A DNA stretch of 44,427 bases from Candidatus Nezhaarchaeales archaeon (lineage in GTDB: Archaea > Thermoproteota > Methanomethylicia > Nezhaarchaeales > JAWCJE01), in contig JAWCJE010000002.1 in assembly GCA_038853715.1 (NCBI GenBank), forward strand, positions 74,719-119,145, in the 5' to 3' direction. The notes under the pieces are model-generated. The model did no database searches and had not been told where the DNA came from. It worked only from the letters and a program-made list of their open reading frames with translations. Numbering within the stretch: position 1 is the stretch's first letter; each line of letters begins with the position of its first letter. A program made the position numbers and the translations under genes. Shown here one piece after another: positions 3,637 to 39,832 of this stretch.

Positions 3637-4701
3637 TTGGTAAAGCTCTTTAGAATCTCGATGGAACCTATGACCGTTAAGAAGCCCCTATCCTCACTAC
3701 TCATTAAGGCTGGAGAAAATCCGTTAATTACACCTAAAACTGAAAACTTTTGGGAGTACTTTCAGACATTTAATCCCGGGGTCATACTTCTCGATGGTCG
3801 TGTTCACTTCATTTATCGAGCCATCGGGGTAGATGGCGTATCACGCTTCGGATATGCCAGCTCAAGGGATGGTTTTCACATAGATGAAAGGCTTCCCTAC
3901 CCGGTTTACGAGCATAGAATCGTGACCCACCTTACTGATAATAATCCATACGCTTCCCCCTCAGGGGGAGAACTCTATGGCGCTGAGGACCCTAGACTCG
4001 TACGAATAGATGGTGAGCCCTCCCTATACATGACTTATACAGTCTACGACGGCCGTAGTTTAATAAGAATGGCCTTAACCTCCATAAGTATCAACGACTT
4101 CCTGGATAAAAAATGGAATTGGAAACCATCAGTTTTCATCTCACCCGAAGGCGAAACCCATAAGAACTGGGTCATCTTTCCAGAGAAGATTAACGGTAAA
4201 TACGCGATCCTATACGGTATAAGCCCAGAGGTACGTATCAGCCTGCTTGACGACATCAACATCAGCAAACCCATAAACATAATCGGCCGCTATAATGGAA
4301 TACCGATAGGTAAGTGGAAAAATGGTTGGGAGGGCTATATTAGGGGTGTAGGCCCACCACCCATAAAAACGGAGTACGGTTGGCTCGTCTTCTATCATGC
4401 ACACTCCAGAGACGACTTTGCAAGGTATAAGGTAGGGGTTATGCTCTTAGACGTTAAAGATCCATCCAGGATACTATGTAAAGCCAAAGAACCAATACTA
4501 GAACCTACAGCTCAGTATGAAAACAGCGGCTTTAAACCTGGCATTATTTACGTTACGGGAGCCATCGTTAAAGACGGCCTCCTTACGCTTTACTACGGCT
4601 CCGCTGATAGTTACGTTTGCGCCGCGTATACAGATCTAAAAGAATTCTTAGAGACATTAATAGAAGAATCTACAGTTGAATCATCAACTGGTTCGCATTA
4701 A
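3637..4701 (+). CDS. GH130-family glycoside phosphorylase/hydrolase (single domain)
   Basis: 354 residues with the five-bladed beta-propeller pattern of GH130 (beta-mannoside phosphorylases and related enzymes). Visible blocks are ENPLITPK and FWEYFQTFNPGVI (about 27-50), VHFIYRAIG (about 59-67), YGAEDPRLV (about 116-124), where the family's conserved Asp lies in EDPR, PPIKTEYGWLVFYHAHS (about 240-256) and the closing YYGSADSYVCAAYTDL (about 320-335). A TATA-like CATATATT at 3610-3617 sits where a leaderless message would begin near the TTG at 3637; ATG 3661 is the alternative start. It heads a same-strand pair with the tandem GH130 gene 73 bases downstream. Substrate cannot be told from sequence; mannosides are the family norm. 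Confidence 0.85.
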   Translation: MVKLFRISMEPMTVKKPLSSLLIKAGENPLITPKTENFWEYFQTFNPGVILLDGRVHFIYRAIGVDGVSRFGYASSRDGFHIDERLPYPVYEHRIVTHLTDNNPYASPSGGELYGAEDPRLVRIDGEPSLYMTYTVYDGRSLIRMALTSISINDFLDKKWNWKPSVFISPEGETHKNWVIFPEKINGKYAILYGISPEVRISLLDDINISKPINIIGRYNGIPIGKWKNGWEGYIRGVGPPPIKTEYGWLVFYHAHSRDDFARYKVGVMLLDVKDPSRILCKAKEPILEPTAQYENSGFKPGIIYVTGAIVKDGLLTLYYGSADSYVCAAYTDLKEFLETLIEESTVESSTGSH

Positions 4702-8151: not shown

Positions 8152-8263
8152 TGCGGCCGCCGGGATTTGAACCCGGGTTTCCTGGAGGCTACCCCCTAAC
8201 AGGCGTGGAAGGCCTACACGCACTCCTAGCTCTGTGTCCTAATCCATGCTAGACGACGGCCGC
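8152..8263 (-). tRNA. tRNA-Gly(TCC) with two non-canonical introns
   Basis: Read on the minus strand: acceptor GCGGCCG pairs with CGGCCGC, discriminator A, D arm GTCT...GGAC, T arm CCGGG/CCCGG around TTCAAAT. An uninterrupted cloverleaf cannot be drawn. Removing about 18 bases at 8215-8232 (between positions 28 and 29) and about 18 at 8182-8199 (near 43/44) gives a perfect anticodon stem CAGGC/GCCTG with loop CTTCCAC, anticodon TCC at 8207-8209, and a mature length of 76. Splice points may shift by one or two bases. A TATA box (TATATAAAG on the plus strand, 8290-8298) lies upstream. CCA is not encoded. Confidence 0.85.
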
Positions 8264-8486: not shown

Positions 8487-8840
8487 TACCTGGTAATGAG
8501 ACTTTATGGTTTTACGTCTACGCTAGCCTTCTAGGTAATGATCAAGACGTAGGTAAGACGCGTTTAAACGTCTCCAACAAACTATGTCTACCGAGGAAGA
8601 AACCAGTATACCAAGTATACGTAAGATCACAAAGTAGACGGCGCCTCCTAAAGCTGATAGGCTCACGCGAGCCCACCTCCCTTGAAACACTTACAATGAT
8701 GGTGCAAATCACTAAAGCCAGATTTTTAATTTTCGGGTTTGCTTGTGTTTTGGCGCTCTGATGATAGGATATATACCATACGTGGCGTTAAGAAGCTTTT
8801 TATAACTGAAAACCCCTTAAATCAAAAAGGGGGGTACTGA
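8487..8840. other. Intergenic region upstream of tRNA-Leu
   Basis: About 350 bases without a recognisable gene on either strand. The only functional signal seen is a TATA-like TTTTTATA at about 8797-8804 that fits a promoter for tRNA-Leu. A CTGATGA and a later CTGA loosely resemble C and D boxes but no internal C'/D' pair was found. Confidence 0.4.
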
Positions 8841-8995
8841 GCGGGGTAGCTGCTATATAGCAGCTACGCAAGTCGCCAAGTCTGGTCAAAGGCGCAGGTG
8901 CGCTTCGTACGCTGCGACGCTTAGGTCCCCCTCAGGGATTAGGTTAAGACACCCTGTCCCGTAGGGGTTCGTGGGTTCAAATCCCACCCCCCGCA
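8841..8995 (+). tRNA. tRNA-Leu(TAG) with three introns, one in the acceptor stem
   Basis: The genomic copy is 155 bases; a class II cloverleaf of 85 bases appears only after removing three introns. Intron 1 (8847-8871, 25 nt) splits acceptor positions 6/7, so GCGGGG + G pairs with CCCCCGC (8988-8994); it contains a perfect hairpin GTAGCTGC/GCAGCTAC. Intron 2 (8899-8918, 20 nt) lies at 30/31 in the anticodon stem. Intron 3 (8926-8950, 25 nt) is at the canonical 37/38. The joined anticodon arm is CAGGG-CTTAGGA-CCCTG, anticodon TAG at 8922-8924. The D arm is GCC...GGC, the variable arm is long (TCCCGTAGGGG), the T arm is GTGGG/CCCAC, and the discriminator is A8995. Confidence 0.88.
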
Positions 8996-16594: not shown

Positions 16595-17812
16595 TTACGA
16601 CCTCCGTAGCTCTTTCACTATGCTAATTAAACGGGTTATGGGGGCGTCTGTTTTCACGCCTTTTAAGTTAAAATGTGTACGTGTAGCCTTAAACCCGTTA
16701 CTTCTAAGTTTGCTGATAACGGCTTCCAGGCTAGGTTCAGCCACCTTAGCTAAATGGCAGATACGATCCAACACGTAATAGAGGGGAGGGCCTTCAGCCT
16801 CAGCTTGTAAAAGCTTTAAAAGCCTTAGTTCAAGATTTTTAAGCTTAAAACTTCGTGCCTCAACTTCCCTTAACACGTTGGTGCAGAAGTCCTTATCCTG
16901 TATCCTACCGGCCCATAAGGGTCCGGCCCTTTGAAGCTTATTACCGCAGTTTTTGCAACGATTTGGAACATCAATACCTATACCTCCAGAGATTAGAGAT
17001 CTAAACCCGCATTTAGGGCAATAAACCGCGTAGCCTAAGCTTCTAAAGGAAGCATCAGCCTTCACGGCGCCCACCCGAATCCTTGAGTAGATCCTAACGT
17101 AATGGCGCGTAAAGTGGCAAAGCAGTGGCTCAATACCTAAGTCCTGTTTACCAGCTTCTCGGCAGATTGCGCTTAGTAGTAATCTAACAGCCACTTCATG
17201 GCAAAAATCGCTCCTTAACGACGTCCCTCCATACCTCCTTTCAGCCACCATGGGATGTACCCCGCATAGGGGAGGCATATCGGTTGCCGTGACCGCTATA
17301 AGCCCTCCATCCCTTAACGATCTTAAGGCTGCGCTTATATAGGGGGCTGGGGAGCCAAAGGGATCTATGTCGACCGCGTTAAACCTAGTTTTTCGAGCGA
17401 CGTATACGCTTAAAAGGAGGTTAGCATCAGCTTGTTCAACTATTACCTTATCACTGAGAGCGTTAATAGCTACGTTTACCTTAGCTAGCTTCACGGCCTC
17501 CGGGTTTACGTCACCGATTACTACTTTCTCGACACCCTTAACCTCCTTCGCGTATCTTAAACCTCTTACGCCGGTAGCCGTTAACGGCTCGGCTATTATT
17601 AAGCCTTGATTTAACGTTCTCTGATAAACCTGGAGGCAGCTTACAGCTATATCGCGGCAGAGTTCCATGGCTGGATTATAGAAGGCTATGGAATCAGCCC
17701 TCTGCCTACCTAGAACTTCCCCGTCAGGTACTAGGAGAACGATATCGCCCTCAAAAACCTGTTTTACAGGGTACCCTAGGCTCGGAACTCCGCTTACTAA
17801 CTCACCGCTCAT
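16595..17812 (-). CDS. trm1: tRNA (guanine26-N2)-dimethyltransferase Trm1
   Basis: 405 residues. Makes m2,2G26 in tRNA using S-adenosylmethionine. The N-terminal FEGDIVLLVP and ADSIAFYNPAMELCRDI, the Rossmann segment PLTATGVRGLRYAKEV (about 80-95), AVDIDPFGSPAPYI (about 146-159) with the catalytic DPFGSP, and DMPPLCGVHP are diagnostic. A zinc ribbon CPKCGF...CKNCGNK (about 270-295) and the RAGPLWAG block follow. ATG at 17812. Nearby tRNA genes have compatible bases at position 26 (for example G26 in Leu and Pro). Confidence 0.96.
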   Translation of the reverse strand: MSGELVSGVPSLGYPVKQVFEGDIVLLVPDGEVLGRQRADSIAFYNPAMELCRDIAVSCLQVYQRTLNQGLIIAEPLTATGVRGLRYAKEVKGVEKVVIGDVNPEAVKLAKVNVAINALSDKVIVEQADANLLLSVYVARKTRFNAVDIDPFGSPAPYISAALRSLRDGGLIAVTATDMPPLCGVHPMVAERRYGGTSLRSDFCHEVAVRLLLSAICREAGKQDLGIEPLLCHFTRHYVRIYSRIRVGAVKADASFRSLGYAVYCPKCGFRSLISGGIGIDVPNRCKNCGNKLQRAGPLWAGRIQDKDFCTNVLREVEARSFKLKNLELRLLKLLQAEAEGPPLYYVLDRICHLAKVAEPSLEAVISKLRSNGFKATRTHFNLKGVKTDAPITRLISIVKELRRS

Positions 17813-39705: not shown

Positions 39706-39832
39706 TGGTGGGGCCGCTGGGATTTGAACCCAGGAGCACCAGCGATCCGGTTACCCCGGCAATGGGTATAATCCCCAGGCTCGCCCCCTAGAAGCGGGAC
39801 TGGCATCCTTGTCCAAGCTAGACGACGGCCCC
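39706..39832 (-). tRNA. tRNA-Pro(GGG) with two introns and encoded CCA
   Basis: On the minus strand, acceptor GGGGCCG pairs with CGGCCCC, discriminator A, and CCA follows (39706-39708). D arm GTCT...GGAT; T arm CTGGG/CCCAG around TTCAAAT. Removing 20 bases at 39780-39799 (position 30/31) and 28 bases at 39745-39772 (37/38) gives the anticodon stem CCAGC/GCTGG with loop C-T-G-G-G-G-C, anticodon GGG at 39774-39776. The intron ends could shift by a base or so. A TATA box (TTATATAAAAGC, plus strand 39855-39866) lies upstream. Confidence 0.85.

Follow-up and report, generated by a model that had tools for sequence, protein, structure and literature searches.

Multi-intron tRNA genes are known from the Thermoproteales (Pyrobaculum, Thermofilum), where they were reported by Sugahara et al. 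(2007, 2008), as cited in PMC4090602. The Thermoproteales carry 0.84 introns per tRNA gene, against an archaeal mean of 0.21 (PMC8450103), and copying of introns between tRNA genes has been proposed for them (PMC4090602). For other archaea, the authors of tRNAscan-SE 2.0 noted that one intron must leave before the next bulge-helix-bulge (BHB) motif can form (PMC8450103).

The locus analysed here lies in a window of 44,427 nucleotides, meaning the whole stretch of DNA that was analysed, from an archaeal genome of 1.55 Mb (30 contigs, 95% complete). With a probability of roughly 0.93, it is the one functional gene for tRNA-Leu(UAG) in an archaeon of the Methanomethylicia and would contain three protein-spliced BHB introns. 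Its features are collected in Table 1, together with two other genes of the same genome that have an intron in the acceptor stem.

Structure of the gene and its splice junctions

The gene was parsed in three ways. By eye, a class II tRNA results once 25, 20 and 25 bases are removed; an exhaustive search for BHB motifs plus a cloverleaf ranks the same intron set first (score 25.7, against 20.25 for the runner-up); and an alignment by homology only, blind to the BHB, against the intronless Leu(TAG) genes of Calditenuaceae and HR02 (L079, L092, L097) gives a single co-optimal intron set. The alignment and the search thus reproduce exactly the coordinates, the intron sizes of 25/20/25 and the positions 6/7, 30/31 and 37/38 of an earlier note made from this DNA. 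The spliced 85-mer is identical to the intronless homologues at 84/85 positions, with one differing position, and folds into a full cloverleaf with 5/5 pairs in the T-stem and, as the note had claimed for a class II cloverleaf with perfect acceptor and anticodon stems, 7/7 and 5/5 pairs in these. The perfect 8-bp hairpin that it had described in the acceptor-stem intron is also present. The precursor folds far better than its shuffles (z = -5.05).

Table 1. Positions of the tRNA-Leu(TAG) gene parts in the window, and two further tRNA genes of the genome with acceptor-stem introns
Feature	Position	Strand	Remarks
tRNA-Leu(TAG) gene, four exons and three introns	8841-8995	+	155 nt
Putative archaeal TATA box TTTATAA	8799-8805	+	from sequence; mature 5' end 42 nt downstream
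Leader G-run GGGGGG, proposed surrogate strand	8829-8834	+	candidate; pairing with the acceptor 3' strand is possible
Leader UGA, outer helix of the 6/7 BHB	8838-8840	+	pairs with U8 C9 G10 (8873-8875)
Exon 1, acceptor 5' strand, positions 1-6, GCGGGG	8841-8846	+	
Intron 1, position 6/7	8847-8871	+	25 nt; perfect inverted repeat TAGCTGCT/AGCAGCTA
Exon 2: G7, 8-9, D arm, G26, positions 27-30	8872-8898	+	homology alignment
Intron 2, position 30/31	8899-8918	+	20 nt; BHB search and homology alignment
Exon 3: positions 31-37	8919-8925	+	anticodon TAG at 8922-8924; homology alignment
Intron 3, canonical position 37/38	8926-8950	+	25 nt; homology alignment
Exon 4: position 38, anticodon stem 3' strand, variable arm, T arm	8951-8995	+	variable arm of 14 nt
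Exon 4 end: acceptor 3' strand CCCCCGC, then discriminator A	8988-8994 (CCCCCGC)	+	
tRNA-Leu(TAA) (L061)	G000:C8:36780 onwards		introns 6/7 (27 nt, BHB 4/3/8) and 37/38; strongest BHB of the set
tRNA(CAT) (L025)	G000:C3, locus position 57 onwards		3/4 acceptor-stem intron (21 nt, BHB 4/3/4) and a long intron near the anticodon

The putative TATA box lies within the range of 30-49 nt reported for Thermofilum tRNA promoters (PMC3218864); a scan for bacterial promoters and terminators gave nothing relevant on the + strand. ARAGORN and the Rfam tRNA model both fail to detect the gene. A split or permuted tRNA is ruled out, as the four exons lie in order within 155 nt.

The earlier note had called for a BHB fold at each junction, and a motif in the correct register is found at all three of the homology-defined junctions. 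At 6/7 the central helix has 3/4 pairs with a G-A mismatch, the outer helix 3 and the inner hairpin 7-8, the scripted value of 8 counting one pair that closes a two-base loop, so that 7 is realistic. At 30/31 the central helix has 4/4 pairs and the outer and inner helices 3 each. The 37/38 junction has 4/4 central pairs and no inner helix (BHL type), and its outer helix is 6 bp without intron 2 and 1 bp with it, which implies an order of removal. The motifs are therefore not all of the relaxed kind mentioned in the note: that at 30/31 is a full hBHBh' and that at 6/7 nearly so. With the junctions fixed by homology and central plus flanking pairs scored over 20,000 intron shuffles, the match is equalled by 0.005% (intron 1), 0.03% (intron 2) and 1.3% (intron 3) of the shuffled introns. 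When BHB registers were compared at the three junctions, none of equal length matched the homology-defined register, and a motif of comparable quality was absent from control loci, scored identically, that have a leader GCGGGG before an intact tRNA. The locus combines a predicted spliced product that is a conserved tRNA, a bulge-helix-bulge at its junctions (with 3/4 central pairs at 6/7) and an endonuclease encoded in the same genome.

The earlier note had made its reading depend on the absence of another intact tRNA-Leu(TAG) gene. Leu 3' ends found in the genome number five, each with a different anticodon (TAG, CAG, GAG, TAA and CAA), and a second Leu(TAG) gene was not found among them in this 30-contig draft at 95% completeness. 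In the open reading frames of the window, CTA ranks second in use among the Leu codons (114/449). That state of the draft leaves room for a missing copy, and so for the locus being a decaying pseudogene or an assembly artefact, with tRNA-Leu(UAG) supplied from elsewhere. We consider this very improbable: the stems are all perfect, the body is nearly identical to functional homologues, the five Leu 3' ends do not include another Leu(TAG) and the same architecture occurs again in Leu(TAA). Alternatively, the 6/7 insertion could be a permanent hairpin of the acceptor stem that no BHB endonuclease removes, as in the unspliced minimum-energy fold, where exon 1 stacks on the acceptor and the hairpin is bulged out. 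This is less probable still, given a BHB register that falls exactly at the homology-defined junctions with so few shuffles matching it, a position 7 that adjoins the stem only once the insertion is removed, and a Leu(TAA) copy that keeps the BHB with different bases.

Splicing endonuclease, related tRNA genes and host lineage

Two PF01974 proteins are encoded in the genome, at C7 and C2. The alpha-type paralogue (L057) has the catalytic Tyr, His and Lys aligned, and matches Aeropyrum pernix EndA (3p1z) with E = 1.6e-52, the catalytic His and the Tyr and Lys motifs included; the residue corresponding to its catalytic His is Ala in entry 3ajv. The beta-type paralogue (L058) is without the catalytic His and has Glu in its place. 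The segment FYGKPIGIRKPK of the alpha paralogue aligns to the region that holds a specific loop in crenarchaeal endonucleases. The function of the crenarchaeal loop is treated in PMC12397907. A broad-specificity (alpha-beta)2 enzyme had been predicted in the earlier note; a catalytic alpha and a structural beta paralogue with aligned residues support the (alpha-beta)2 type at the gene level.

Acceptor-stem introns had been described as rare, and the Leu(TAG) case is not the only one in the genome, since Leu(TAA) has an intron at 6/7 and tRNA(CAT) one at 3/4. The acceptor-stem introns of these three genes have TAGC...GCTAC in common (shuffle fractions 0.2-2.5%). Leu(TAG) and Leu(CAG) have clearly similar introns at 30/31, a resemblance equalled by 0/3000 shuffles. 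Such sharing fits copying of introns between genes, as proposed for the Thermoproteales (PMC4090602). Parsed automatically, 39 other tRNA genes of the genome contain 41 introns, four weak parses included and a few genes left unparsed. This density is near or above the 0.84 of the Thermoproteales and far above the archaeal 0.21 (PMC8450103).

Two further interrupted genes lie on the - strand of the window: tRNA-Gly(TCC) at 8152-8263, with introns at 29/30 (18 nt) and in the variable region (19 nt), and tRNA-Pro(GGG) at 39709-39832, interrupted by a 20-nt intron at 30/31 and a 28-nt intron at 37/38. Neither gene is detected by ARAGORN or Rfam (default thresholds for tRNA-Gly). Elsewhere in the genome, two introns appear to interrupt tRNA-Ile(GAT) (L005, G000:C3:93625), one within the T loop and one in the variable region. 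An orphan T arm with the 3' acceptor CCGGAGC (L056, G000:C4:75342) is without a contiguous 5' acceptor strand and may belong to a tRNA that is split, permuted or heavily interrupted. A T-loop pattern search of the genome did not find the Tyr, Cys, Pro(TGG) and Pro(CGG) tRNAs. The window also contains a Trm1-type tRNA N2,N2-dimethylguanosine methyltransferase (16595-17812, - strand) and three GH130 mannoside phosphorylase-like genes around the tRNA cluster.

The host's class comprises 40 genomes, of which 27 have mcrA, including one large Mcr-positive family, a pattern that matches the Methanomethylicia, with Nezhaarchaeales as the most probable order; mcrA was not found in the host genome itself. 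Host 16S identity is 89-91% to order-mates and 84-87% to class-mates, with which it groups. On both grounds membership of the Thermoproteales is rejected. The Leu 3'-end pattern was run against 12 further genomes from the order and class and matched 11 of them; their recovered Leu acceptor stems are intact and most of their Leu(TAG) genes intronless, so that, on this sequence comparison, the introns are a gain in the host's lineage.

How widespread such introns are was surveyed with a pattern for Leu genes starting GCGGGG and having an uninterrupted D arm, which makes all counts lower bounds. In 398 genomes of the phylum the pattern matched no other 6/7 Leu intron, and a relaxed scan of the phylum added none. 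In about 85,000 named species genomes, a clear acceptor-stem Leu intron was matched only in Bathyarchaeota (L101; 7/8, BHB 4/3/8). Named genomes gave 39 stretches that match a 6/7-interrupted Leu pattern; in almost all of these the D arm directly follows an intact acceptor, and the matching GCGGGG belongs to the leader. The Bathyarchaeota gene (positions 4276-4391) is a tRNA-Leu(CAG) with a 31-nt intron, and its leader has GCGGGG, after which comes what looks like a degraded copy of the 5' portion of the gene itself. A Leu(GAG) gene of Methanotrichaceae (L090) has a 29-nt hairpin insertion in the acceptor stem, with a weak BHB (3/1/8) and an ambiguous position. One other pattern match (L115) is not a tRNA, and a search of a plasmid collection returned one irrelevant 41-bp T-arm match. 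A literature search did not find a paper combining Nezhaarchaeota, tRNA and intron.

A possible role for the 5' leader

In the 6/7 motifs of both Leu genes the outer helix differs in a compensatory way: the last three leader bases pair with positions 8-10 as UGA/UCG in Leu(TAG), and the Leu(TAA) helix is CAA/UUG. When the Leu(TAG) precursor is folded with the BHB constrained, the leader GGGGGG pairs with CCCCCC in the acceptor 3' strand. The free-energy gap between the BHB and acceptor-paired folds is about 0 in the folding model with the natural leader and 5-14 kcal/mol with a neutralised G-run; neutralising worsens the BHB fold by about 5-13 kcal/mol in Leu(TAG) and Leu(TAA) and, a weaker effect, by about 4 to 5 kcal/mol in the Bathyarchaeota gene, energy models being crude near 75 C. 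Leaders from intact Leu genes never do as well as the natural leader (0/47), and for Leu(TAA) 9.5% of shuffled leaders equal it. The unconstrained minimum-energy fold of the Leu(TAG) precursor differs from the BHB fold, and the predicted probability of BHB pairing is low. In the tRNA(CAT) gene the leader already contributes to the BHB helix, so this gene does not bear on a surrogate role of the leader.

Maturation might then proceed as follows. The precursor would be transcribed with a short 5' leader, and the two-subunit endonuclease would cut each BHB, the exons being ligated. Intron 2 would leave before intron 3, because the outer helix of intron 3 is the anticodon stem, which is complete only without intron 2. 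The 6/7 cut would be made from a fold in which the leader supplies the outer helix and its G-run keeps hold of the acceptor 3' strand, with exon 1 paired to the intron. As the leader is part of this fold, 6/7 splicing should come before 5' trimming by RNase P, the RNA of which is encoded in the genome. We infer both the splicing order and the use of the leader from sequence.

In its general form, the proposal is that an intron in the acceptor stem depends on a surrogate acceptor strand encoded in the leader, which pairs with the 3' strand and leaves the true 5' strand available to form the BHB with the intron, that the strands swap after splicing and RNase P then removes the leader, and that this is independent in Methanomethylicia and Bathyarchaeota. 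We hold it tentatively, at somewhat worse than even odds; it was conceived after the Leu(TAG) and Leu(TAA) genes had been seen, and the Bathyarchaeota gene was looked at after the idea had formed. About evenly balanced is the chance that, for this step only, the G-run has no splicing role and is a remnant of the 5' end of the gene, duplicated locally in tandem, or simply chance G-richness near the promoter. Intact Leu genes of Caldarchaeales do have GCGGGG copies in their leaders, so a leader of this kind can exist where the acceptor stem has no intron, and exon 1 is flanked by GGGGTA (and GGGGAT) repeats in both the TAG and TAA genes. On the other side, the acceptor-intron genes top the genome's other tRNA genes in leader complementarity (a mis-set iMet start excluded), and in the independent 7/8 case from Bathyarchaeota the surrogate reaches 6 bp, compared with a maximum of 5 among the 47 intact Leu leaders (0/47 reach 6). 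The Caldarchaeales copies (L079, L092, L097, L114, L089, L109, L116, L111) lie 10-33 nt before the intact acceptor and are similar in several species.

A surrogate leader, if real, would explain how the most stable helix of a tRNA can accommodate an intron; it would amount to a strand-exchange step in tRNA maturation and predicts splicing before 5' maturation.

Comparison with known systems

Like the multi-intron tRNAs of the Thermoproteales, those of this host have up to three BHB introns per gene, a mix of canonical and noncanonical positions and a high density (PMC4090602), and one intron would have to be removed before the next BHB can form (PMC8450103). They differ in having a host among the Methanomethylicia, and position 6/7 is absent from those named in the available parts of the reviews, whose lists are open-ended. 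The 3/4 acceptor-stem introns of the Thermoproteales (PMC4090602) similarly interrupt the acceptor 5' strand, where the BHB necessarily borrows the 5' leader; in contrast, the present genome has 6/7 introns in two Leu isoacceptors, plus a 3/4 intron in one tRNA(CAT). Caldiarchaeum subterraneum is also a case of noncanonical and multiple introns outside the Thermoproteales, its tRNA-Leu(UAA) too being multi-intron, whereas an acceptor-stem intron is not mentioned in the available part of its description (PMC3293823). The predicted endonuclease resembles the (alpha-beta)2 enzymes of Crenarchaeota such as Aeropyrum pernix (PDB 3p1z, 3ajv) in having two paralogues, of which alpha aligns over nearly its full length, with the His and flanking motifs; the sequence of the host's beta, however, resembles other archaeal enzymes (5x89, 4fz2, 1a79) more closely than the crenarchaeal ones.

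Published work already covers tRNAs with three introns, introns in the acceptor stem and endonucleases of broad specificity (PMC4090602, PMC4033280, PMC8450103, PMC12397907). The present case adds a host outside the Thermoproteales, a 6/7 intron in each of two isoacceptors, relatives in which the sites are cleanly empty, and a proposed leader function that can be tested. Standard tRNA finders overlook such genes. Dense gain of tRNA introns at multiple positions, the acceptor stem included, thus occurs beyond the Thermoproteales, and the empty sites in near relatives open intron gain to study against known intronless orthologues.
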